In this document: one piece after another, positions 46,607 to 59,055 of the stretch
Numbering within the stretch: position 1 is the first letter of the stretch
How the letters are laid out: each line of letters begins with the position of its first letter
Notes under the pieces: model-generated
The model's database searches: none
Told to the model about the DNA's origin: nothing
The model's input: the letters and a program-made list of their open reading frames with translations, nothing else
Translations under genes and position numbers: made by a program
Assembly (NCBI GenBank): GCA_014381745.1
Contig: JACNLA010000028.1
Span: 62,001-126,000, forward strand
DNA length: 64,000 nucleotides
Source: Actinomycetota bacterium
Lineage (GTDB): Bacteria > Actinomycetota > Acidimicrobiia > Acidimicrobiales > MedAcidi-G1
Direction: 5' to 3'

Positions 46607-46614
46607 TCAGAGGG
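46596..46614. terminator. Possible bidirectional terminator
   Basis: CCCTCT and AGAGGG pair around a 7-nt loop that contains the stop codons of two convergent genes. The stem is short and has no T-run. Confidence 0.35.
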
Positions 46615-47326
46615 AAGGTTCGGCAGTGACAGCCGCTGCCATTTCAGCCAGGGTGAAGAAGGTGTGGTCAGTTGCGGGCAGCCCGGAGACGGCCGTCTCC
46701 GAGAGACGGCTCCGGTCGATCCAGGCATTGTCCAGGCCCATCGAGCGTGCGGGGATGTGGTCGTGCCTGATGCTCTGGGCCGTGTGGAGGATCTCCGCCC
46801 TCCCGTGGCCCAGGTCTGTGGCAACGTGCTCGATCATGTACTCGAAGTTGGTCAGATCTGGTTTGTATGAGCCGATGTCCTCAGCGGTGTAGACGGCGTC
46901 AAACTCGACCCCCAGCAGGGCATTCGAGGCCGCGAAGCCCGCCCGGTCCACGTTCGACAGGATCACCAGGTCGAAGTGCTCGGCCAGCAACCTCAGAGCG
47001 GCGGATGAGTCGGGAAACGCCGGCCATGATGGCACTGAGGAACCAAAGGCATGGTCCAGCGACACCGTGGTCTGCAGGTCCAGATGGCCTGCGAGCGAGC
47101 GGTGAACCCTCTCAAGGACGCCCGGGTACGAGAGCGTCGGGGTGGCCGCCTGTTGATCAGCCTCGTAGCGGTTGAACAACTTGATTGCATCTTCCCGCTC
47201 GGGGCAACCGGGCGTATCGCCGGCGAGGAGGGGCTGGAGGGCCTCCCAGATGCCCGACTCCCAGTCAATGAGGGTTCCGTAACAATCGAAGGTGAGTACC
47301 GAGTGTTCGGTGAGGCGGCGAACCAT
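46607..47326 (-). CDS. HAD-superfamily hydrolase, haloacid dehalogenase type II-like
   Basis: 239 aa. Motif I is LTFDCYGTLIDWESGIW with the nucleophilic Asp. Motif II is LVILSNVDRAGFAASN, then the Lys of DIGSYKPDLTNFEYM and the SIRHDHIPARSMGLDNAWIDR region. This is the L-2-haloacid dehalogenase group, although many members act on phosphates. It starts at ATG 47326, with a TTG three codons upstream also possible. It follows the nitrilase gene by 9 nt. Confidence 0.85.
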   Translation of the reverse strand: MVRRLTEHSVLTFDCYGTLIDWESGIWEALQPLLAGDTPGCPEREDAIKLFNRYEADQQAATPTLSYPGVLERVHRSLAGHLDLQTTVSLDHAFGSSVPSWPAFPDSSAALRLLAEHFDLVILSNVDRAGFAASNALLGVEFDAVYTAEDIGSYKPDLTNFEYMIEHVATDLGHGRAEILHTAQSIRHDHIPARSMGLDNAWIDRSRLSETAVSGLPATDHTFFTLAEMAAAVTAEPSL

Positions 47327-47335
47327 TCCAGGCAA

Positions 47336-48250
47336 CTAGGGAGCAGTGGTTCGAGAGCGGTCCACCTCGAGGCGGAGAACATCGGGGCGGGAATAATGGC
47401 CGGCCGGGTCAAAGTTCTGGCGCTGTCTTCCAACCTCGCCGATGTCCAGGTCGGCCCACACGATGGTCTCGTCGTTCCGCACCGGCTCGACGATCCAGCG
47501 TCCGTCAGGACCGGCGATGCAGGTTCCCCCGTTGTGGTAGCGCTCACCCGCGGGTAGCAGGTCACGCAGGGGGAAGTCATCTGGTACGTCTTCAGACCGA
47601 TAGACGGCTCCGACGCTAATCACGAACAGCCGGCCCTCCTTGGCGATGAACCTCGTGATGTCCTCGGTTAGACCCACCGAGCCCGGCCATGCAGCCACGT
47701 GCACCTGGGAACCGGTCGCATACATCGCCGTTCTCGCCATGGGCATCCAGTTCTCCCAGCAGTTGAGGCCTGTCAGGCGTACCCCGGCATGGTCATGGGC
47801 AGTCAGGCCGGCTCCGTCACCGTCAGCCCAGACGAGGCGCTCCGTGTAGGTCGGCTTCAGCTTCCGGTGGACGCTGACGATTCCCTCGAGCGGGTCGATT
47901 GCGACGAGAGAGCAGTAGACGGAGCCCATTGAGGCTGACCGTTCAGCGACACCCACGTACGCGAACAGTCCGGCCTCGCGCACGGCCTCCACGACGACCT
48001 CAAACTCGGTCCCGTACACGTCAACTGCCTGATCCAGATAGCAGGCAAAGGCGGCCTGTTGGTCAGGATCCTCCCATGCTGAGGAGTTCGTCCGGTCCAG
48101 CCAGATGGGGTAGCCGGGAATGAAAACCTCAGGAAATACGACCAGGTCGGCACCTCCGGCTGCAGATTCGACAATCCTGTCCACGACGATGGCGATGGTC
48201 CCCTCCCGGTCAAGGAAGGCGGGAGAGGCCTGGACGGCGGCGACACGCAC
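47336..48250 (-). CDS. Nitrilase-family carbon-nitrogen hydrolase
   Basis: 304 aa from the GTG at 48250 (a TTG 12 codons upstream is possible). The catalytic triad is Glu41 in VVFPEVFIPGYP, Lys130 in HRKLKPTYTER and Cys164 in GLNCWENWMP. The CWEN after the Cys and the PEVFIPGYP element are typical of true nitrilases (branch 1), which turn nitriles into acids plus ammonia. A HAD gene follows in the same operon. It is divergent from the PLP enzyme gene. Confidence 0.88.
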   Translation of the reverse strand: MRVAAVQASPAFLDREGTIAIVVDRIVESAAGGADLVVFPEVFIPGYPIWLDRTNSSAWEDPDQQAAFACYLDQAVDVYGTEFEVVVEAVREAGLFAYVGVAERSASMGSVYCSLVAIDPLEGIVSVHRKLKPTYTERLVWADGDGAGLTAHDHAGVRLTGLNCWENWMPMARTAMYATGSQVHVAAWPGSVGLTEDITRFIAKEGRLFVISVGAVYRSEDVPDDFPLRDLLPAGERYHNGGTCIAGPDGRWIVEPVRNDETIVWADLDIGEVGRQRQNFDPAGHYSRPDVLRLEVDRSRTTAP

Positions 48251-48331
48251 AGGGAGCAGTCTGATCCACCCATCCGCTGAGGGCAAAGTCGACCTGACGA
48301 GGTAGACAGGATCGGCGAGTCAGGACGACAC

Positions 48332-49549
48332 ATGATGACTGGAGCCGAAATGGGTGACAAGGGACGCAGGCGGATGGCTACCGAGGCAATCCATGCCGGC
48401 GAGGTACACGACGCCTCGGGTGCGCACATTTCGCCCATCTACCAGACGTCCACGTTCACGTTTGCCGACATGGCTGCTGTCGAGGCCCGTGCAGCAGGGG
48501 AGTCAGATGCCTACATGTACTCCCGTGGCGGCAATCCCGGAAGAACCGCCCTGGCCTCAAAGTTGGCAGCACTCGAGGGAGGCGGCGCAGCGGATGTCTC
48601 GGCTGAGATATTCGCCTCTGGCATGTCGGCCATATCCGCTGCACTCATGGGCCTTGCCAAGGCCGGAGACCACATTGTCACCCAGCAGGTCCTGTACGGC
48701 TCGGCCGATCACCTCATCTCCGATGTGTTGACCGGGTTTGGTGTGAGCAACTCCCGGGTCGCCGGGCTGGTACCAGATGCGCTCGAGCGGGAGTTGGAAC
48801 AGCACCCCGAAACCACGGTCGTCTACCTGGAGACTCCGGCCAACCCGACGATGGCGGTCATCGACATCGCAGCGACGGTGGAGATCGCCCATGCAGCGGG
48901 AGCAAGGGTTGTCGTTGACAACACCTTCGCAACGCCAGTCCTACAACGACCACTCGACTTGGGCGCGGACGTTGTGGTCCACAGCACAACCAAGTTCATC
49001 AACGGACACGGAACAGTGATCGGTGGGGCTGTGATCAGCAACGACGAGGCCCTGATGACCGACGAGATTGCCTCCCTGATCCGTTACACAGGTGGAGTGC
49101 CCAGCCCGTTCGACTGCTGGTTGACAAACCTTGGCCTGAAAACCCTGCCGCTGCGGATGCGTCAGCACTCTTCGAACGGCATGGCTGTCGCCCAGTTCCT
49201 GGAAGGGCACCCGGCAGTTGCCGCCACCTCCTATCCCGGCCTGGCGAGCCATCCCCAACATGATTTGGCGAGCCGGCAGATGGATGGTTTCGGCGCACTC
49301 ATCGCATTCGACCTGGGCTCCTACGAGGCGGCCTCCCGCTTCCTCGAACGACTCGAGCTGTGCTCCCTGGCGGTCAGCCTCGGCAACGTCGACACCCTCA
49401 TCGAACACCCTGCCTCCATGACCCACGCAGTGGTTCCGCCTGAGGAGCGTGAAGCCTCCGGCATCACCGATGGCCTCATTCGGATATCAGTCGGGCTGGA
49501 AGATGCCGCCGACATCATCGCCGACCTGGATCAGGCCCTGAGGGTCTAA
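48332..49549 (+). CDS. Cys/Met metabolism PLP enzyme (cystathionine gamma-synthase/lyase or methionine gamma-lyase type)
   Basis: 405 aa. The family pattern is clear: [58 protein letters not shown] for PLP phosphate, [33 protein letters not shown] (its last part holds the Schiff-base Lys) and [17 protein letters not shown]. The exact reaction is not determined by these motifs. ATG 48332 has AGGAC upstream, but an internal ATG at 48374 would give the minimal family start. Confidence 0.88.
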
Positions 49550-49637: not shown

Positions 49638-50510
49638 GTGGAGGTTCTGAGCAGGGAGCAGACTGATGGCTTCTGGGCCGACGGCTACCTGTTTCTGGAG
49701 GACGCTGTACCGGCAGAGAGGCTGGCTGCCCTGTCATCGCAGTTCGACGCCTGGGTCGATGAGAGTCGCTCCCACAGCGAGCCGTTCGGAACAACGATGG
49801 ATGGCAGACCGCGCTTTGACGTGGAGCCGGGTCACTGTGCCGAGGCGCCCGCCCTCAGGCGGATCGCCTCGCCGACGGAACTGTCTGAGGCCTACCTGGA
49901 CGTCATGCGTTCCAGCATTGCCGTTGATGCAGCGGCGCAGCTAATAGGCCCGAACGTCGCCCTGAACCACACCAAGGTCAACTCCAAGCTCCCGGGTGCC
50001 GGAACCGAGGTGAAGTTCCACCAGGACTTCCTCTTCGAACCCCACAGCAATGATGACATGATCACAGTGCTCTACTTCATCGACGAGGTAACCATGCAGA
50101 ACGGACCCCTCGAGGTGCTACCCGGAAGCCACACGGGGCCCCTTTACGATCACTGGCACGAAGGCCTCTTCACGGGTTCAGTCTCTGAATCTGTGGTCGA
50201 TGAGGCGAAGGGGCAACTGGTGTCATGTGTGGGACCCGCCGGTTCAGCCTGCCTGATGCACGGTCGAACGCTGCACGGCTCGGCACCCAACCTCTCCGAC
50301 AGACCCCGAACGCTCTTCATCTGTGCGTACAAGGCCGAGGACTGTCGTCCACTGCAGGTCAGCCACGTACCGTCTGTCCACGAGGGCGAGGTGGTGAGGG
50401 GCGCATCGACCAACCGCGTCCGCTGCAGCGAGTCCAACATGGAGTACCCGGAGGTCCCGACTGGCGCCTCCTTCTTCAACCAGCAGGAGCGGCATACGGT
50501 GGACATGTGA
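49638..50510 (+). CDS. Phytanoyl-CoA dioxygenase-family Fe(II)/2-oxoglutarate oxygenase
   Basis: 290 aa. The iron-binding facial triad is visible as His128-x-Asp130 in VKFHQDFLFEPHSNDD and His213 in GRTLHGSAPNLSDRPRTLF, followed by an Arg for 2-oxoglutarate. NHTKVNSKLPGAG and MQNGPLEVLPGSHTGPL are typical of the PhyH/EctD group. The substrate is unknown. It starts the operon with GTG and its stop overlaps the next gene (GTGA). Confidence 0.88.
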   Translation: MEVLSREQTDGFWADGYLFLEDAVPAERLAALSSQFDAWVDESRSHSEPFGTTMDGRPRFDVEPGHCAEAPALRRIASPTELSEAYLDVMRSSIAVDAAAQLIGPNVALNHTKVNSKLPGAGTEVKFHQDFLFEPHSNDDMITVLYFIDEVTMQNGPLEVLPGSHTGPLYDHWHEGLFTGSVSESVVDEAKGQLVSCVGPAGSACLMHGRTLHGSAPNLSDRPRTLFICAYKAEDCRPLQVSHVPSVHEGEVVRGASTNRVRCSESNMEYPEVPTGASFFNQQERHTVDM

Positions 50511-51286
50511 CACACATCGACCTGCTTCAGCTCAACTTCAAGACCGATGACGGTCTCGGCAGTCGCGCCAGGTTGGGCCTGGTCGTCCTGGAGTCGGATC
50601 ACACCCTTGAGGCCGAGTTCCGGATGCTCAACCTTGACGGGGTCGTCCACTACGTGTCCCGCATTGCCAACGATGCGACCGTCACACCTGAGACCCTCAC
50701 TGCAATGGAGGAGAGGCTGCCGATGGCTGCGGCCCTTCTACCTGTTGAGTTTCAACTGGACGCCATCGGATACGGCTGCACGTCGGCTGCGACCCTCATT
50801 GGTGAAGAAGGTGTCCACGCAGCCCTCGACTCGGCTCATCCGGGGGTGCCAAATACCAACCCCATTAAGGCTGCAGTTTCCGCATTTGCGGCCATGGGCG
50901 TCAGCCGCATCGGCGTGCTGACCCCCTACACGGCAGATGTGACAGATCGGATCGTCGGACACTTTGAGTCCGTTGGCATCGAGGTTGCCGCAGCAGGGTC
51001 ATTCCTGGAGCCAGACGACCATGTCGTCTCTCGGATTACGGAGCAGGCGGTCACCGAAGGTGCTGCTCTTATCGGAGAGGCCGCCGGATGCGAGGCAGTG
51101 TTTGTCTCCTGCACAAGCCTCAGAACGTTCGGGGTCGTGTCTGACATCGAGCGGCGCCTCGACAAGCCGGCTGTGTCGAGCAACCTGGCTCTCATCTGGC
51201 ACCTGTTGAGGCTTGCCGGTGTTGACGACGAGCTCCCGGGCTTGGGGCGGCTCTTCACCCTCGGTCTGGCACGGGGTGAAGGTTGA
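50507..51286 (+). CDS. Asp/Glu racemase / maleate isomerase / EutA-like protein
   Basis: 259 aa. Two Cys residues at equivalent places of the two half-domains, Cys91 in AIGYGCTSAATLIG and Cys202 in FVSCTSLRTFG, are the signature of the cysteine racemase/arylmalonate decarboxylase/maleate isomerase fold. NTNPIKAAVSAFAAMGVSRIGVLTPY is also standard. The GTG start overlaps the previous stop. With the M24 enzyme downstream it recalls the EutA-EutD pair of ectoine breakdown, but other ectoine genes are absent. Confidence 0.85.
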   Translation: MTHIDLLQLNFKTDDGLGSRARLGLVVLESDHTLEAEFRMLNLDGVVHYVSRIANDATVTPETLTAMEERLPMAAALLPVEFQLDAIGYGCTSAATLIGEEGVHAALDSAHPGVPNTNPIKAAVSAFAAMGVSRIGVLTPYTADVTDRIVGHFESVGIEVAAAGSFLEPDDHVVSRITEQAVTEGAALIGEAAGCEAVFVSCTSLRTFGVVSDIERRLDKPAVSSNLALIWHLLRLAGVDDELPGLGRLFTLGLARGEG

Positions 51287-52452
51287 CCGGGTCTCCACCG
51301 CCCCGCGGCTTCCATGAGGCCGAGTACAGGCGTCGAACCGAGGCAGCCCAGGCGATGATGGTTCCTGCCGGAATTGAATGCCTGCTGGTCTGCACCGAAC
51401 CTGAGGTCAGGTACTTCACGGGTTTCTTCACGCCCTTTTGGCAGAGCCCGACCCGTCCCTGGTTCGTGGTGGTACCCGAGACGGGGAAGCCGATCGCCGT
51501 CATTCCCAACATTGGCGAGACCACCATGTCTGGCACCTGGGTCGACGACATCCGTACATGGCCGGCCCCTCAGCCCGATGACGACGGCCTGTCGCTCCTC
51601 TCAGAGACCCTCCGAGACGTTGCAGGCCCGAACGGAACAATCGGTCTCCCGATGGGCCACGAGACCCACCTGCGGATGCCCCTGAACGACTTCGCATCCC
51701 TGCAGGAGACCCTGGGAGACATCGGCTTCGTGGATGCCACCGACATTGTGCGTTCGCTGCGGATGGTCAAGTCCGAGGCCGAAATCGCCAAGATCGCCCA
51801 CATCTGCAGCATCGTCTCCAACTCCTTTGACGCGCTGCCCAACCTCGTTCATGTCGGGATGAGCGAGAGAGACGCATTCAGGGCATTCAAGGTCGACCTC
51901 CTTCAGCGTGGCGCAGACGATGTTCCGTACCTGGTCGGAGCCACCGGGCCAGGCTTCTCGGACGTGATCAAACAGCCCGGTGACCGGGAGATCGAACACG
52001 GCGACCTGCTCATGTTCGACACCGGCTCCGTGTTCGACGGCTACTCAAGTGACTTTGACCGCTACTACGCATTCGGCGAGGTTGACCCCGCTGCTGCTCA
52101 GGCCTACCGGACGGTCTGGGATGCCACCGAGGCTGGCCTCGAGGTGATGAGGCCCGGGGCTACCACCAGCGATGTCTGGGCGGCCATGGCCGACGTCCTT
52201 ACAGCCGGTGGTTCGCTGGGCAACTCCGTGGGGCGACTCGGTCACGGCATTGGAATGCAGGTGACTGAGTGGCCTTCGCACACTGAACACGACGGAACGG
52301 TGATTGTGGAGGGAATGGTCCTGACGCTGGAACCGGGTCTGACCTGGGAACCCGGAAAGATGATGCTCCACGAGGAGAACGTGGTTATCCGAAGTGACGG
52401 GCCTGAGTTGTTGTCCCGAAGGGCCTCATCGGAACTTCCGGTAATCGACTGA
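51283..52452 (+). CDS. M24-family metallohydrolase (Xaa-Pro peptidase / EutD-like)
   Basis: 389 aa. The N-terminal creatinase-type domain includes RRRTEAAQAMMVPAGIECLLVCTEPEVRYFTGF. The pita-bread domain has the metal ligands Asp in LLMFDTGSVFDGYSSDFDRYYAFG (two), His in LGHGIGMQVTE, and Glu in LTLEPGLTWEP and LHEENVVIRS. All five ligands are present. Relatives are aminopeptidase P, creatinase, ectoine hydrolase and DddP, so the substrate is open. The TTG start overlaps the preceding stop (TTGA). Confidence 0.86.
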   Translation: MTGSPPPRGFHEAEYRRRTEAAQAMMVPAGIECLLVCTEPEVRYFTGFFTPFWQSPTRPWFVVVPETGKPIAVIPNIGETTMSGTWVDDIRTWPAPQPDDDGLSLLSETLRDVAGPNGTIGLPMGHETHLRMPLNDFASLQETLGDIGFVDATDIVRSLRMVKSEAEIAKIAHICSIVSNSFDALPNLVHVGMSERDAFRAFKVDLLQRGADDVPYLVGATGPGFSDVIKQPGDREIEHGDLLMFDTGSVFDGYSSDFDRYYAFGEVDPAAAQAYRTVWDATEAGLEVMRPGATTSDVWAAMADVLTAGGSLGNSVGRLGHGIGMQVTEWPSHTEHDGTVIVEGMVLTLEPGLTWEPGKMMLHEENVVIRSDGPELLSRRASSELPVID

Positions 52453-52455
52453 CGC

Positions 52456-52584
52456 ATGGACACCCTCCGCAATCTGCCCGGAGCACTCGTTGACCTGATG
52501 AGCGGACTGGCCGTAGCATCTGATCACCTCGAGTCGGGCAGGCAGCGAGGCAAAAAGGTGTGTGCCCAGGACCCAGCCGCCTGA
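52456..52584 (+). CDS. Possible 42-aa small protein
   Basis: An ATG 3 nt after the M24 stop opens 42 codons: DTLRNLPGALVDLMSGLAVA, then a basic stretch and a KVCAQDPAA end. It is hydrophobic-amphipathic at first, then charged. It fills most of the gap before the monooxygenase gene, and a promoter-like sequence lies inside it, so it may equally be non-coding leader. Confidence 0.25.
   Translation: MDTLRNLPGALVDLMSGLAVASDHLESGRQRGKKVCAQDPAA
52490..52519 (+). promoter_or_regulatory. Internal promoter before the luciferase-like monooxygenase
   Basis: TTGACC (52490-52495) and TAGCAT (52514-52519) are separated by 18 bp, with about 75 nt to the next start codon. It could drive the second half of the operon on its own. 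Confidence 0.45.
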
Positions 52585-52598
52585 CAGAGAGCACGGAC

Positions 52599-53765
52599 AT
52601 GCACTTCGGATACTTCCTCAACCAGAACAACCTCGGGCTCGCCAAGCCGTTCAACGAGGTGGTCGATGAAGGTCGTCAAATTGCCACCTACTGCGACCGC
52701 AACGGCTGGCACTCCATCTGGACGACCGAACACCACTTCGGCCACGAGGGGCTCGAGGTCTGCCCAAACCCGATACTCATGACAGCTGACCTGGCCGCGC
52801 GGACAGAGCAAATCAGGATCGGACAGGCGGCCAGCATCATCACCTTCCACCACCCGATCAGGCTTGCCGAGGACCTGGCAATGCTCGACCACATGAGTGG
52901 CGGACGTCTCGAGGTCGGTGTGGGTCGGGGCATCTATCCCCGTGAGGCCGTGAACATGAACCCGACCTCAGATGTCAGGAACTCCGATGTGAACCGTGCC
53001 CTGTTCGCAGAGACCCTCGAGGTAATTAGGCGCTGTTGGACCGAGGAGTTCTTCTCCTTCGAAGGCGAACACTTCACCTTCCCCCAACCTGGCCTTACCT
53101 TCAGCCATTCAATGAGCCCGCCCACGCCGGCGAACACCGACCCTGAAACAGGCGAGATCACAGCACTCTCGGTTGTGCCGAAGCCGATGCAGCAGCCACA
53201 CCCGCCGCTGTGGCAGGTGATCGACACGCCACCATCCATTCAGTTCGCAGCACAAAACGGCCTGCAGGGCATGTTCTGGATTCCACCAACCGACGCAATG
53301 GTTCCGCGCTTTGAGATCTACCGTGACGCCGCCTCTGAAGCCAGAGGGGAAGAGGTGGAAATGGGAGATGGTGTGGCGCTCGTTCGGGACCTGTTCGTGA
53401 CAGAGACAATGGAAGAGGCCGAACGGCTGGGCGGACCCGGAATGCTCACCTATCTGGAGTGGGTCTGCCACTTCAGAGGCCTCGGGAACCACCTCTTCCC
53501 GGGTGAGGAGTTGCCAGACACGCCCGGGAACCTGGACCTCCTCTCATACGACTGGATCCACCCACGCAACATGTTGTTCGGAACCCCCGAATACATCGCC
53601 GAGAAGATCCAGGAGATGAAGGACAAGCTGAACCTGAAGACACTCCTGTTGTGGTCAAACTTCCCGGGAGTGCCACACGGGGCAGTCATGGACAGCATCA
53701 CCATGTTCACCGAACAGGTCATGCCACTCTTCTCTGAGGAACCGGCACAGGGGGGCACATTCTGA
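52599..53765 (+). CDS. Luciferase-like (LLM-class) flavin monooxygenase
   Basis: 388 aa from the ATG at 52599. The family start is MHFGYFLNQNN, then WHSIWTTEHHFGHEGLEVCPNPILM, IRIGQAASIITFHHPIRLAEDLAMLDHMSGGRLEVGVGRG and later PPLWQVIDTPPSIQFAAQNG. It is a TIM-barrel enzyme using FMNH2 or F420H2 supplied by a separate reductase. A bacterial-luciferase-type monooxygenase would oxidise a C-H, aldehyde or ring bond. DUF1185 follows with a 1-nt overlap. Confidence 0.88.
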   Translation: MHFGYFLNQNNLGLAKPFNEVVDEGRQIATYCDRNGWHSIWTTEHHFGHEGLEVCPNPILMTADLAARTEQIRIGQAASIITFHHPIRLAEDLAMLDHMSGGRLEVGVGRGIYPREAVNMNPTSDVRNSDVNRALFAETLEVIRRCWTEEFFSFEGEHFTFPQPGLTFSHSMSPPTPANTDPETGEITALSVVPKPMQQPHPPLWQVIDTPPSIQFAAQNGLQGMFWIPPTDAMVPRFEIYRDAASEARGEEVEMGDGVALVRDLFVTETMEEAERLGGPGMLTYLEWVCHFRGLGNHLFPGEELPDTPGNLDLLSYDWIHPRNMLFGTPEYIAEKIQEMKDKLNLKTLLLWSNFPGVPHGAVMDSITMFTEQVMPLFSEEPAQGGTF

Positions 53766-54352
53766 TGGCACTTCAGGTACGAAAGTTGGTTACGCGTTCA
53801 GAGGAGATCCGTATCGAGGGCGGTCGGGAGGCCGACCCACCCCTGTTTCTCTACGGAGTGGCCGCTGTCATTGCGAACCCGTGGGCGGGGAAAGAGTTCA
53901 TCGATGACCTGAAGCCAGAGATTCTCGAGGTCGCACCCGAGCTTGGCGCCCTGGTGGTTCCCAGCCTGGTAGACGCTGCCGGCGGTGGAGATGCCGTCGA
54001 GGCCTACGGCAAGGCGGCGATGGTCGGCACCTCAGGTGAGGTCGAGCACGGATCGGCGCTGATCCACACGCTCCGCTTCGGGAACGTGTTCAGAGATGCG
54101 GTAGGTGGCACCTCGTATCTCTCCTTTACCAACACGAGGGGTGCGCCCGGTGCGACAATCTCGATCCCGATGATGCACAAGGCCGATCCCGGCTGGAGGT
54201 CCCATTACCTCACCCTCGAGATGACCGTTGCGGATGCACCGGGCCCCGATGAAATCGTCGTGGCTATCGGGGCATCGGTGGGGGGCAGGCCGCATCACCG
54301 CATCGGCAACCGCTACTCCGACATGGAGGAGATGGGCCTCAGCCCTGAATGA
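53765..54352 (+). CDS. Amino acid synthesis family protein (DUF1185)
   Basis: 195 aa. It matches my recollection of the AA_synth/DUF1185 family: VRKLVTRSEEIRIEGGREADPPLFLYGVAAVIANPWAG, EAYGKAAMVGTSGEVEHGSALIHT and the metal-like end GGRPHHRIGNRYSDMEEMG. Biochemistry is poorly known despite the name. It is repeatedly found beside luciferase-like monooxygenases, as here. It is soluble and translationally coupled on both sides. Confidence 0.8.
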   Translation: MALQVRKLVTRSEEIRIEGGREADPPLFLYGVAAVIANPWAGKEFIDDLKPEILEVAPELGALVVPSLVDAAGGGDAVEAYGKAAMVGTSGEVEHGSALIHTLRFGNVFRDAVGGTSYLSFTNTRGAPGATISIPMMHKADPGWRSHYLTLEMTVADAPGPDEIVVAIGASVGGRPHHRIGNRYSDMEEMGLSPE

Positions 54353-55131
54353 GGCACGAGACCTTCGCCCGGGTGGACGGCGAGGGCCCACCCCTGGTTC
54401 TCATCCACGGGGTGGGGCTCGACCACACCATGTGGGATCTCGTGGCGGGTCGCCTGGCTGAGCAGAGAACCGTGATCCGGTACGACATGATCGGCCACGG
54501 GCGGACTCCCAACCGCCCCGGAAATCGTAGGGTCGAGGACTTTGTCGCTGAACTTGTTCAGGTACTGCACACGCAGGGGTTGAATCGCCCCGACGTGGCT
54601 GGAATCTCGATGGGTGGCATGGTCGCCCTCGCAGCAGCGGTCAGAAACACCGGCCTGTTCAGGAGGATGGCTCTACTAAATACGGTGTTTGAACGGACTC
54701 CACAGCAGATTACGGCACTTCTTAGCCGCCTTGCCGCCGCTGAGGCCGGAGGTATGGCCGCAGTAGCCGACACGGCGATCGACCGGTGGTTTGACTCACC
54801 GTGGCAGGTCGAGCATCCCGATCGGGTATTAGCCGTACGTGCGAGCCTCATGGCCACCGATCTTGCCGGGTACCTGAAGGCCTACAGGCTCTTCATCAAC
54901 GGCGACCCTTTGGTGCCGGCGCAAGTAGCCCAGATTCAAGACCCCGTACTGGCCATGACAGGCGAGTTGGACGTTGGTTCTACCCCGGAAATGGCAACCG
55001 CCTTGGCAGGAGTTGTGCCGAACGGGCAGGCTCGTGTTCTGGATGGTCTTCACCACCTGCCACCAATCGAGGAACCCGACGTGTTTGCGACTGCCCTGAC
55101 CGACTTTCTGGAGATGGAGATGACGCCGTGA
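54349..55131 (+). CDS. Alpha/beta-fold hydrolase
   Basis: 260 aa. The oxyanion region is LVLIHGVGLDHTMWD, the nucleophile elbow GISMGGMVALA, the acid near MTGELDVGSTPEMA and the catalytic His in LDGLHHLPPIEEPDVF. The sequence resembles 3-oxoadipate enol-lactonase-type enzymes, consistent with opening a lactone or ester made by the preceding monooxygenase. The start overlaps DUF1185 by 4 nt and the stop overlaps the aldehyde dehydrogenase. Confidence 0.87.
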   Translation: MRHETFARVDGEGPPLVLIHGVGLDHTMWDLVAGRLAEQRTVIRYDMIGHGRTPNRPGNRRVEDFVAELVQVLHTQGLNRPDVAGISMGGMVALAAAVRNTGLFRRMALLNTVFERTPQQITALLSRLAAAEAGGMAAVADTAIDRWFDSPWQVEHPDRVLAVRASLMATDLAGYLKAYRLFINGDPLVPAQVAQIQDPVLAMTGELDVGSTPEMATALAGVVPNGQARVLDGLHHLPPIEEPDVFATALTDFLEMEMTP

Positions 55132-56603
55132 TCGACTACCAGATGTACATAGACGGCGGGTTCTGTGAGGCCTCGGACGGCGGTCGCTTCGACTCCGTCA
55201 ACCCGGCAACGGGTACCGCATGGGCCACGGCGCCGGCGGCTACAGAGGAAGACGTCGACCGGGCGGTGAGGGCTGCTCGACGAGCCCTCTACGAGGGGGA
55301 GTGGGCCGAGATGACCCCGACCCGCCGTGGAGGACTGCTATTCGACCTGGCGGACCTGATGGCGGAGCGCTCCGAACATCTGGGGTCCATCGAGACCACA
55401 GACAGCGGGAAGTTGGCCGTGGAGACACGCGGGCAGTCGGCTTACGTGGCCGAGTACTACCGCTACTACGGAGGCCTGGCTGACAAGATCCAGGGAAACA
55501 CCCTTCCGATCGACAAGCCTGACCTCCACGTGTTCACGACGCGTGAGCCGATCGGTGTCGTCGCAGGGATAGTCCCATGGAACGCCGAGATGCTTCTCAC
55601 CGCAACCAAGGCCGCACCGGCTCTGGCTGCCGGCAACACCGTCGTGATCAAGTCATCTGAGGAAGCGCCGGCCCCGGTGCTGGAGTTCGCCAAGCTCGTG
55701 GACGAGGTCGGTTTTCCGTCAGGGGTGTTCAACCTGATAACCGGTTTCGGTGAGCCGTGCGGCCGCGCTCTTACAAGCCACCCTCTGGTCAGCCGGGTGG
55801 CGTTTACAGGCGGGGTGGATGCAGCCCGGCACGTAGTGGCCAACACGGCAGCCAATTTCGCCCACGTCTCCCTTGAGTTGGGTGGAAAGTCGCCGATCGT
55901 CATCTTCGACGATGCAGACCTTGAGGGGGCCGTGAACGGTGCGGTGGCCGGCAACTTCGGTGCCAGTGGCCAGAGCTGCGTGGCGGGTTCGCGGGTGTTT
56001 GTTCAGGCGGGCATCCACGACGAGTTCATCGACGAGGTGGTGAAGCGGGCCGAAGCCGTGCGCATCGGTGACCCCCTTGATTCAGACACCCAGATGGGTC
56101 CTCTCGCAACAGAGGCGCAGCGTGACCACATCGAGGCTGTCGTAGCCGAATCGGCTGCGCAGGGAGCGACGATCCACACCGGTGGTCAGAGGCCTGACGG
56201 AATGGAGACAGGTTGGTACTTCCAGCCCACCGTCATCGGTTGCGGCGATCAGGATATTCGAAGCACCCGGGTCGAGTTGTTCGGGCCTGTCATGTCCGTC
56301 CTCTCCTTTCAGACCGAGGCCGAGGGCGTTGCGCTGGCCAACGACACAGAGTTCGGTCTTGGTGCAGGCGTCTTCACAAGAGATGTGGCCCGTGCCCACC
56401 GAGTAGCAAAGGCCATCCGGTCCGGAATCGTCTGGGTGAACACGTACCGGGCGATCTCCCCGGTAGCGCCCTTTGGTGGCTTTGGACAGAGCGGTTACGG
56501 CAGGGAGGCCGGCATGGACGCCATCTACGAGTACACGCGCACCAAGAGCGTCTGGATCAACACATCAGACACACCGATGTCGAACCCCTTCGTGATGCGT
56601 TGA
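55128..56603 (+). CDS. Aldehyde dehydrogenase
   Basis: 491 aa from the GTG at 55128, which overlaps the previous stop. Catalytic Glu250 lies in VSLELGGKSPIVIF and Cys284 in GQSCVAGSR. IVPWNAEMLLTATKAAPALAAGNTVVIKSSEEAP and the NAD site FTGGVDAARHV are typical. The VPWNAE segment has Ala-Glu where most relatives have Phe-Pro, perhaps a substrate-specific change. It would oxidise an aldehyde released earlier in the pathway. Confidence 0.92.
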   Translation: MIDYQMYIDGGFCEASDGGRFDSVNPATGTAWATAPAATEEDVDRAVRAARRALYEGEWAEMTPTRRGGLLFDLADLMAERSEHLGSIETTDSGKLAVETRGQSAYVAEYYRYYGGLADKIQGNTLPIDKPDLHVFTTREPIGVVAGIVPWNAEMLLTATKAAPALAAGNTVVIKSSEEAPAPVLEFAKLVDEVGFPSGVFNLITGFGEPCGRALTSHPLVSRVAFTGGVDAARHVVANTAANFAHVSLELGGKSPIVIFDDADLEGAVNGAVAGNFGASGQSCVAGSRVFVQAGIHDEFIDEVVKRAEAVRIGDPLDSDTQMGPLATEAQRDHIEAVVAESAAQGATIHTGGQRPDGMETGWYFQPTVIGCGDQDIRSTRVELFGPVMSVLSFQTEAEGVALANDTEFGLGAGVFTRDVARAHRVAKAIRSGIVWVNTYRAISPVAPFGGFGQSGYGREAGMDAIYEYTRTKSVWINTSDTPMSNPFVMR

Positions 56604-57409
56604 CCCACCAGTTCGACATTGAGACTGCAGCAGTACCGAACGGGGACGGCCGCTGGACGGTTGACCTGACCGACCGCTGGAACATCGGCGACAACCCCAA
56701 CGGCGGTTACCTGGTAGCGGCTGCGCTTCAGGCAGTACGGCAAATCAGTTCCCACCCGGATCCGATCTCGGTAACCGCCCATTTTCTGCGGCCGGGAACC
56801 GGCGGAGCTTCGGCTGACCTGTCGGCATCACTTCTCCGCACGGGCCGCAGCGTGACAACTGCACGGGCGAGTCTCAGCCAGCATGGAACCGACCGGCTGG
56901 AACTTCTCGCAGCCTTCGGTCGCCTCGACGGTGGCTCCGGCCACGGCCACGTGGTTACAGAGGCAATGCCGGACATTCCACCACCCGAGGAGTGCGTCGA
57001 CCGCTCCGGCCTGGAACAGGGAGTGGAGCTACACATCCAGAGCCGTGTGGACATGCGTGTCCACCCCGACTATGCGACGGCGGCCGGAGTGAAACAGGCC
57101 AAGACCCTGGGATGGATCAGGTTCAGCGACGGGCGTCAACCCGACACGCTCGCAGCGACACTCTTCGCCGATGCATTCCCACCGCCGATCTTTGGTCTGT
57201 TGGGAAAGATCGGCTGGGTTCCAACGATCGAGTTGACAGTCCATGTGCGCCAGAGGCCTGCACCCGGGTGGGTATGTGGCCAGTTCGTGACCGAGGACCT
57301 TCACGACGGCCGCATGATCGAGTCCGGAACCCTTTGGGACTCGACAGGGGCCCTTTTCGCCAGATCCCGCCAGTTGGCGATGCTGCTCCCAGACCCCGGG
57401 GTGAACTAG
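56600..57409 (+). CDS. Acyl-CoA thioesterase-like double-hotdog protein
   Basis: 269 aa from a TTG that overlaps the aldehyde dehydrogenase stop (TTGA). RWNIGDNPNGGYLVAAALQAVRQ is the first hotdog helix. ISVTAHFLRPG and the second half (LGWIRFSDGRQPDTLAATLFADAFPPPIF, TIELTVHVRQRPAPGWV, GRMIESGTLWDSTGALFARSRQLAMLL) match the 4HBT_3/TesB-like group. It may release a free acid from CoA at the end of the pathway. Confidence 0.82.
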   Translation: MTHQFDIETAAVPNGDGRWTVDLTDRWNIGDNPNGGYLVAAALQAVRQISSHPDPISVTAHFLRPGTGGASADLSASLLRTGRSVTTARASLSQHGTDRLELLAAFGRLDGGSGHGHVVTEAMPDIPPPEECVDRSGLEQGVELHIQSRVDMRVHPDYATAAGVKQAKTLGWIRFSDGRQPDTLAATLFADAFPPPIFGLLGKIGWVPTIELTVHVRQRPAPGWVCGQFVTEDLHDGRMIESGTLWDSTGALFARSRQLAMLLPDPGVN

Positions 57410-57706
57410 ATGGCAGCGACGGGAGCCCTCCGGATCCCGGTGAGGGTCCGGCCGGGGGCCCGTACGGTGCACGTGGGTGGGACCTGGGGACCTGACAGCG
57501 TTCTCATGGTGGCTGTCCAGGCTCCGGCTGTGGATGGAAGGGCCAACAAGGCCGTGGTAGAGGCTCTGGCCAATGCCCTCGGCGTTTCGCGACGGAGCGT
57601 GACGCTCGTGGGAGGGGAGCGCTCAAGGAACAAGCTGGTCGAGATCGTCTCCGCCTTGCCTGATGTCCCGGCTCGCCTGGATCAGCTTCTCGGCGATCCG
57701 GCCTGA
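57410..57706 (+). CDS. DUF167/YggU-family protein
   Basis: 98 aa. The family core IPVRVRPGARTVHVGG, VQAPAVDGRANKAVVEALANALGVSRRSVTLVGGERSRNKLVEI is clear. It is a small widely conserved fold of unknown function. It follows the thioesterase without a gap, but the family is housekeeping-like and may have no part in the catabolic pathway. Confidence 0.9.
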   Translation: MAATGALRIPVRVRPGARTVHVGGTWGPDSVLMVAVQAPAVDGRANKAVVEALANALGVSRRSVTLVGGERSRNKLVEIVSALPDVPARLDQLLGDPA

Positions 57707-57719
57707 AGGTGAGCGGGAG

Positions 57720-57732
57720 TAGCGTGGAACGC
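57720..57732 (+). promoter_or_regulatory. Leaderless-type -10 element for the flavin hydroxylase
   Basis: TAGCGT at 57720-57725, then 7 nt, then the ATG at 57733. It favours this start over the GTG at 57709. Confidence 0.5.
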
Positions 57733-59055
57733 ATGGACGGAATCGATGGCGACCCTCGCCGAGTCCTGATTGTCGGCGGCGGCATATGCGGTCTGACCCT
57801 GGCTCTCTGCCTGAACCGGTCAGGTCACGACGTAACCGTGTTTGAATCGGTGGCCGAGCCACGCGAACTGGGTGTAGGCATCAACCTGCTCCCGCACTGC
57901 GTTCGGGTGCTCCATGATCTGGGCCTTGAGGAGGCCCTCGCTGCAGGCGCCGTAATGACGGGTGAGCTCCGCTTCTGCAGCGATGATGGCACCCTCATCT
58001 GGTCCGAGCCAAGGGGACTGGCAGCCGACAACCCGTGGCCCCAGTACTCGATCCACCGCGGCCATCTCCAGATGCTGCTTCTGGACGCCGTCCGTCGGGA
58101 CCTTGGCGCGGGTCGCGTTCTGACCGGCCACCACCTGACGGGCTTTGAGCATGATGCCGGGGGAGTGACCGCCGACTTCGTGGACAGGAGGACCGGAATG
58201 GATCTGGACTCTGCTCGGGGAGACTTGCTGATCGGCTGTGACGGACTTCACTCCACCGTGAGGCGTCTGCTGTTCCCCGACGAGGGTGCAATGCACTACT
58301 CGGGTCTGGTCCTGTGGCGCGGTGCCGTCGAAGCTGAGCCTTTCCTGGATGGCCGCACAATGTTCATGGCTGGACATGATCAGCAAAAGGCGGTCGTTTA
58401 CCCAATCCGAAACCCGAGCGAGCCGGGGGGTACGGCTCTCATCAACTGGGTTGCCGAGCGGCCAGTAGACCTTGATGTGGCCACTGCAGACTGGAACACG
58501 CCAGTGGATCCCAGCAAAATTGCTCCCTGGTTCGAAGACTGGGACTTCGGCTGGATCCATGTCGGCGAGCTCATTGCATCCAGTGAGATGGCCTACGAGT
58601 TTCCAATGGTCGACAGGGATCCCCTTGAACGCTGGTCTCACGGACGGGTCACGCTCCTCGGTGACGCGGCCCATCCGATGCGCCCCAACGGAAGCAACGG
58701 CGCCAGCCAGGGGATACTTGACGCCGAGACCCTGACCGTGACCCTGGATTCCGAATCCGATCCAGTTGAGGCGCTTCAGGCCTATGACGAAGAGCGAAGA
58801 GAGGTAACCGGACGGCTGGTCCTGGCCAACAGGCAGGCCGGCCCCGAGAGGGTCATGCAGTGGGTCAAGGACCGCTGTGACGGCTCCTGCATGAATCGCC
58901 ACACCTGCGTAGATGAACACGACCTTGAACGCGAAGCCACCGCCTACAAGGCACTGGCCGGCTTTGACATCGCCAGCCTTCAGGCCATGTCAGGCCGAGA
59001 TTCGTCCAGGCAGGTCACGCCAGCGAAGCCAGGAACTCCAGAAGGGCCGGGTTGA
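57733..59055 (+). CDS. FAD-dependent aromatic hydroxylase (PHBH-fold)
   Basis: 440 aa. FAD motifs are visible: GxGxxG in RVLIVGGGICGLTLALCLNRSG, the DG element in LLIGCDGLHSTVRRLLFP, and GDAAHPMRPNGSNGASQG. The protein resembles salicylate- and 3-hydroxybenzoate-hydroxylase-like monooxygenases (NAD(P)H, O2). The C-terminal 50 residues contain a Cys-rich patch (CDGSCMNRHTC) that I do not recognise. It converges with the next hydrolase gene and their 3' ends overlap by 41 nt. Confidence 0.87.
   Translation: MDGIDGDPRRVLIVGGGICGLTLALCLNRSGHDVTVFESVAEPRELGVGINLLPHCVRVLHDLGLEEALAAGAVMTGELRFCSDDGTLIWSEPRGLAADNPWPQYSIHRGHLQMLLLDAVRRDLGAGRVLTGHHLTGFEHDAGGVTADFVDRRTGMDLDSARGDLLIGCDGLHSTVRRLLFPDEGAMHYSGLVLWRGAVEAEPFLDGRTMFMAGHDQQKAVVYPIRNPSEPGGTALINWVAERPVDLDVATADWNTPVDPSKIAPWFEDWDFGWIHVGELIASSEMAYEFPMVDRDPLERWSHGRVTLLGDAAHPMRPNGSNGASQGILDAETLTVTLDSESDPVEALQAYDEERREVTGRLVLANRQAGPERVMQWVKDRCDGSCMNRHTCVDEHDLEREATAYKALAGFDIASLQAMSGRDSSRQVTPAKPGTPEGPG

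Follow-up and report, generated by a model that had tools for sequence, protein, structure and literature searches.

The stretch of DNA analysed here (the window) comprises 64,000 nucleotides of an Acidimicrobiales bacterium (contig JACNLA010000028.1 of assembly GCA_014381745.1, positions 62,001 to 126,000), whose draft genome of 2.19 Mb is 96% complete. At 49638-57409 it carries eight genes in a row, which an earlier note, made from the sequence alone, had taken for a degradation operon. These genes form two independent modules, the second of which has its own promoter and a structured leader RNA, followed by a thioesterase gene. Profile matches confirm the eight gene families and their coordinates. 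The features are the following:

49638..50510, forward strand: PhyH-family Fe(II)/2-oxoglutarate dioxygenase, module 1 (PF05721, 94 bits; HxD motif, FHQDF, and distal His/Arg present)
50507..51286, forward strand: EutA/maleate isomerase/AMDase-fold protein (EutA-like), module 1 (TIGR02990, 210 bits, cut-off 318)
51283..52452, forward strand: M24 metallohydrolase, module 1 (PF00557, 133 bits)
52490..52519, forward strand: sigma70-like promoter of module 2, TTGACC/TAGCAT with an 18 bp spacer (hexamers invariant in four species, flanks diverged)
52527..52567, forward strand: leader RNA pseudoknot (P1 52527-52531/52546-52550; P2 52536-52540/52563-52567; covariation, 16 genomes)
52599..53765, forward strand: luciferase-like flavin monooxygenase (LLM), proposed ring-opening oxygenase, module 2 (PF00296, 154 bits)
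53765..54352, forward strand: DUF1185 protein, TgnF-like, module 2 (PF06684, 221 bits)
54349..55131, forward strand: alpha/beta hydrolase, proposed N-formyl-enamide hydrolase with the role of TgnD, module 2 (PF12697; GISMGG nucleophile elbow)
55128..56603, forward strand: aldehyde dehydrogenase (ALDH), TgnC-like, module 2 (PF00171, 544 bits)
56600..57409, forward strand: 4HBT acyl-CoA thioesterase with a TTG start (PF20789/PF13622)

The overlapping stop and start codons described earlier for most junctions are found at six of the seven (from PhyH to thioesterase: -4, -4, +146, -1, -4, -4 and -4 bp). The sole gap, 146 bp from the M24 gene to the LLM gene, lies between the modules.

Two independent modules

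Neither half of the run needs the other. The EutA-like protein is present in 32 of the 48 genomes of the family, and in 21 of the 23 good ones, whereas the LLM, at 75% identity or more, is represented by 12 full-length genes and one truncated gene, and module 1 mostly occurs without module 2. At the loci fetched, the EutA-like gene is nearly always part of the PhyH-EutA-M24 trio, and PhyH, where found, always adjoins the other two. Module 2, for its part, recurs in Acidimicrobiia and Alphaproteobacteria, at many loci with no module 1 nearby. Most of the relatives named in this text are metagenome-assembled genomes of Acidimicrobiia, and several are marine.

Two genomes of the same genus (G025 and G027) retain module 1 intact and have lost the LLM, DUF1185, hydrolase and ALDH genes. 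The order of the remaining genes is kept: nitrilase, HAD, a pyridoxal-phosphate (PLP) enzyme, PhyH, EutA-like, M24, thioesterase, DUF167 and genes beyond. About 420 bp separate M24 from the thioesterase in these genomes, and include some 75 bp that match window positions 54997-55069, within the hydrolase gene (E 7e-11), showing that the cassette was deleted at that spot. The thioesterase is retained where module 2 is lost (L081/L082).

The promoter between the halves, proposed in the earlier note, is supported by the invariance of TTGACC and TAGCAT in the window and three relatives, in which the spacer and the upstream DNA have diverged. The 75 or so nucleotides after the promoter are almost identical in these four species. 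As a mere pattern, TTGACC/TAGCAT would not stand out from chance, with 2 matches found and 1.8 expected.

All eight genes could alternatively serve one pathway for a single substrate, with the PhyH, EutA-like and M24 proteins preparing a compound that the LLM half opens. Co-occurrence of the halves elsewhere, set beforehand as a test, was seen in the same genus and in genus g5: three further near relatives have them side by side, and in g5 the modules lie near each other, separated by other genes. PhyH-family genes are also found near this LLM in L031 and L043. Such a pathway is nevertheless improbable, and was rejected on the distribution and the deletion scar, since each module occurs without the other; the invariant promoter, moreover, stands between the halves. 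Distribution, deletion remnant and promoter together bear out the earlier suggestion of two joined modules. One record (L040), which matches this genus in gene order and at 58-90% protein identity, is titled Acidobacteria bacterium NP130, apparently a misclassified bin.

Module 1 would be a separate hydrolysis module resembling that of ectoine utilisation (eutABCDE / doeAB). Its EutA-like protein has two candidate catalytic cysteines (C91 and C202), and its M24 protein has the complete set of five metal ligands, D-D-H-E-E, when aligned to 4EGE. The likeness of this pair to EutA-EutD, pointed out previously, exists but is distant, as neither equivalog cut-off is reached (210 of 318 bits for EutA, 68 of 613 for EutD). 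A true ectoine or hydroxyectoine pathway, with PhyH resembling EctD and M24 resembling EutD/DoeA, would agree with the ehuCDA transporter genes near one relative's locus. It is very unlikely, however: all three proteins fall far under every equivalog cut-off, eutB, eutC and eutE are not adjacent, M24 is nearer to metal-dependent prolidases than to DoeA, and relatives' loci lie beside M20 peptidases and PLP lyases. The EutA-M24 pairs of genomes outside the family are 49-56% identical and have amino-acid ABC transporters, M20 peptidases, and cystathionine lyase or diaminopropionate ammonia-lyase as neighbors.

Around the eight genes lie the following:

48332..49549, forward strand: Cys/Met-metabolism PLP enzyme, cystathionine lyase-like, upstream neighbor of module 1 (PF01053, 465 bits)
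57410..57706, forward strand: DUF167 protein, continuing the run (PF02594)
57709..59055, forward strand: FAD monooxygenase of the PRK07538 subfamily, last gene of the run (NF005720, 537 bits, cut-off 400)

The eight genes are thus as first described, but the run goes on past the thioesterase through DUF167 (gap 0), which probably bears no relation to the pathway, and the FAD monooxygenase (gap 2), ending at 59055. The PLP enzyme gene ends 88 bp before PhyH, a position kept in L028, L081 and L082. Divergent from it, on the minus strand at 46607-48286, are a gene for a nitrilase-family hydrolase (Nit6803-like, below cut-off) and a HAD dehalogenase-like gene, syntenic with module 1 across the genus.

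Module 2 and the trigonelline toolkit

Module 2 represents a new variation on the ring-opening toolkit of the trigonelline type. A search with DUF1185 led to annotated plasmid clusters of GntR, DUF1185, hydrolase, flavin reductase, LLM and ALDH genes, and tgn-type clusters with the gene set of module 2 are found in Rhizobium, Thioclava, Ruegeria and Aquabacterium. A DUF1185 protein has been identified as a homologue of TgnF from the trigonelline pathway (PMC7913881). Against Rhizobium-type clusters, which were used for the comparison rather than the ADP1 proteins themselves, identity is 57-60% for ALDH and 60-64% for DUF1185. The hydrolase is 31-37% identical to tgn hydrolases, which are 38-55% identical among themselves.

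The LLM does not follow this pattern. Over full alignments it is only 26-30% identical to the LLMs of tgn clusters, compared with 58-69% within those clusters, which rules out orthology and indicates that a different enzyme performs the first step. Window-type LLMs, by contrast, share 55-69% identity, including those of Proteobacteria (L037, L038 and L043). The earlier view that the second half oxidises, opens and finishes a ring agrees with the tgn gene set, although the oxygenase is non-orthologous and the flavin reductase unlinked.

The ALDH tree splits the window-type proteins from those of tgn-type clusters, their sister group (97/93), and the hydrolase tree also separates the two types (98/99), in both cases with high support. 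Proteobacteria with a window-type LLM group with the window-type in both trees. Judging by these sequences, module 2 seems to be a separate variant of the pathway, one that crossed phyla, rather than trigonelline genes with a noisy LLM.

Degradation of trigonelline itself, with a non-orthologous LLM in place of the ancestral oxygenase, would fit the ALDH and DUF1185 identities, which are near tgn levels, and the presence of the compound in sea water, where it feeds Ruegeria pomeroyi (PMC8269262). The lineages of ALDH and hydrolase follow the type of LLM from one phylum to another, which points instead to another substrate, and marine trigonelline is scarce (PMC8269262), making this possibility rather unlikely.

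A conserved pseudoknot in the leader of module 2

The earlier note gave the promoter but missed the structured RNA behind it. This RNA has a conserved core of 41 nt, NCUCR-AGU-(C)-GGCA-SGCAG-YGAGN-nnnAAN-GGUGUG-YGCC, that folds as an H-type pseudoknot, in which helix P1 joins the two ends of the first half, and the loop that it closes pairs with the 3' end to make P2. The motif starts 7 nt past the -10 box in the window, and 6-8 nt past a -10-like box where inspected, which places it at the expected transcription start. Sixteen genomes from two phyla carry it upstream of this LLM or of its flavin reductase. Among 16 distinct sequences, 92.5% of the cells are paired and five pairs show compensatory double changes, two in P1 and three in P2. 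The score for covariation, 0.225, exceeds the 0.111 of shuffles (0 of 500) and is lost when the partners are slid. Two proteobacterial loci (L043 and L047) have tandem copies, whose P2 sequences differ yet remain mostly complementary; in L047 the copies have GACAC/GUGUC and GGCGC/GCGCC. Aestuariispira insulae CECT 8488, a cultured strain with the module, bears two copies, of which one precedes the flavin reductase and the other the LLM.

A covariance model built on the motif matches strongly nowhere but at these loci, with a single match in each genome of the family that bears the motif. LLM-less sister genomes gave none, and 397 Actinomycetota and 385 Alphaproteobacteria genomes gave no credible match away from these loci, in screens whose stricter filters can lose weak matches; a further Alphaproteobacteria screen took nearly the same sample. 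Weak matches in other genomes (17-29 bits) were taken as chance, those inspected lying in unrelated sequence without LLM neighbors. In the tgn loci examined the motif was likewise not found, nor was it in plasmids or viral contigs, and stretches of three members had no related match in Rfam 15 at E<=10. The minimum-energy fold of the leader (z = -0.08) is uninformative, because pseudoknots are not modelled. An N-terminal extension of the LLM from the GTG at 52560 was considered as a cause of the conservation and rejected as a general explanation: the closest relatives have an open frame here, but in L035, L036, L030 and L099 the frame, read by eye, meets a TGA.

A repressor operator in the DNA at the transcription start would account for P1, an inverted repeat at about +1, and for the tandem copies, as operators are often tandem. 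Two interleaved helices covary, however, and the copies in L047 vary in sequence while keeping their complementarity, which a single repressor is not expected to tolerate; an operator is accordingly an improbable explanation. The 41-nt motif is instead a candidate new riboswitch class. In the free structures predicted for several leaders, a P1 or P2 strand pairs with the Shine-Dalgarno region, so that formation of the pseudoknot would free the site, and an ON switch at the ribosome site can be hypothesised from these models. A different leader, marked by a GGATCC...GGATCC inverted repeat, is common to three of the loci without the pseudoknot (L032, L039 and L018), where another regulator may control the cassette.

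Proposed mechanism, substrate and known systems

On balance, it is somewhat probable that module 2 is a trigonelline-type cassette opening an N-methylpyridinium-type betaine, with the pseudoknot leader as a riboswitch-like sensor, and that module 1 is an independent, ectoine-utilisation-like module. The sequences show the gene content, the modularity, the separate lineages of ALDH and hydrolase, the conserved promoter and the covarying RNA; we infer the substrate, the reaction order, the ligand and the switching as follows. Transcription would begin at the TTGACC/TAGCAT promoter. About 41 nucleotides at the start of the RNA would fold into the H-type pseudoknot, a putative sensor of the substrate or an intermediate. 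The LLM, supplied with FMNH2 by a flavin reductase encoded elsewhere in the genome, would cleave the C5-C6 bond, yielding an N-formyl enamide aldehyde. ALDH would oxidise the aldehyde, and the hydrolase would remove formate (and methylamine) from the enamide, with DUF1185 assisting as TgnF does. The single PF01613 flavin reductase of the genome, on contig 6 (G000:C6:3970-4563; L067, minus strand), is unlinked and is likely the partner of the LLM; in L037 and L047 the flavin reductase adjoins the LLM. In a narrower version, which is possible but tentative, the pseudoknot represents a new class of riboswitch; it would sense an N-methylpyridinium betaine (e.g., homarine), or the product of its ring opening, and switch on a variant pathway with a new LLM-type oxygenase.

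Some neighbors in relatives handle quaternary amines, such as a ProV/ProW transporter directly after ALDH (L041; ATPase above cut-off), a GbcA-like Rieske oxygenase (L037) and an MttB-family protein (L043), and an Ldh_2-type dehydrogenase lies behind the cassette in L036 and L042. Homarine (N-methylpicolinate) is abundant in sea water and far commoner than trigonelline (PMC8269262), although the values were later corrected downward (PMC10134881). Considering these data, homarine may be the best single candidate, although doubtful taken alone; another pyridinium is just as conceivable, and trigonelline would be less likely than either. If the substrate is homarine, structural logic suggests 2-oxoglutarate or N-methylglutamate as the product.

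Just right of the window, about 8 kb from the thioesterase gene, a SoxB-D-A-G-type heterotetrameric complex is encoded beside an amidase (65566-70526 in window numbering; L066:7567-12527, minus strand). It falls below the sarcosine-oxidase cut-offs and could be a sarcosine oxidase or an N-methylglutamate dehydrogenase, either of which would suit a methylated amine as product of module 2. At L043:1824-4345, the genes for an MttB-family methyltransferase and a second PhyH-type dioxygenase immediately precede a window-type LLM gene that has tandem RNA motifs, and the hydrolase there seems to be replaced by an amidase.

Several observations weigh against the proposed mechanism. The DUF1185 tree places the proteobacterial L037 beside the tgn side (94/97), and DUF1185 also occurs in other pathways, e.g., that of 7-hydroxycoumarin (PMC7913881), so this family does not fix the substrate. 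The closest characterised relatives of the LLM are far off, TgnA/B has been argued not to act on homarine (PMC8269262), neither a flavin reductase nor a transporter is linked within the window, and the Ldh_2-type reductase family of two relatives is absent from its genome. Regarding the RNA, the motif is absent before the LLM at 6 of 22 window-type loci (L018, L032, L033, L039, L041 and L093). Formation of the pseudoknot raises the calculated Shine-Dalgarno accessibility in 11 of 13 leaders, few of them beyond linker shuffles, so the switching prediction is weak.

Homarine and related pyridinium betaines are notable marine carbon and nitrogen pools. If the mechanism is true, a second lineage of ring-opening enzymes in marine actinobacteria would add a sink for them. 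A small RNA aptamer for a compound of this kind would bring both a new ligand for riboswitches and a biosensor ready for use. The strict link of the RNA to one enzyme makes the question of the ligand directly testable.

Among known systems, homarine catabolism (Ferrer-Gonzalez 2026, Nat Microbiol) shares with module 2 the proposed substrate class and, putatively, the SoxBDAG-type complex encoded beside the window, likenesses drawn apart from any comparison of the hom gene families. The best parallel for the chemistry is the tgn pathway of Acinetobacter baylyi (Perchat 2018), in which the ring is reportedly opened at C5-C6 by a two-component flavin oxygenase and the aldehyde then oxidised; hydrolysis of the N-formyl enamide is said to give methylamine, formate, CO2 and succinic semialdehyde, which is oxidised in turn. 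We know of no solved TgnB-type enzyme. Module 2 shares with the tgn cluster an LLM, DUF1185, alpha/beta hydrolase and ALDH, of which ALDH and DUF1185 are 57-64% identical. It differs in its non-orthologous LLM, in its unlinked flavin reductase, in the succinic semialdehyde dehydrogenase not seen in the window-type clusters examined, and in a leader RNA not found in the tgn loci examined. Guanidine-III, SAM-II and preQ1-II riboswitches are small H-type pseudoknots, and the leader resembles them in size and topology, with a P1 loop that pairs downstream to make P2, while its conserved nucleotides (AGU..GGC..GCAG..GGUGUG.GCC), without a match in Rfam, set it apart from all three.

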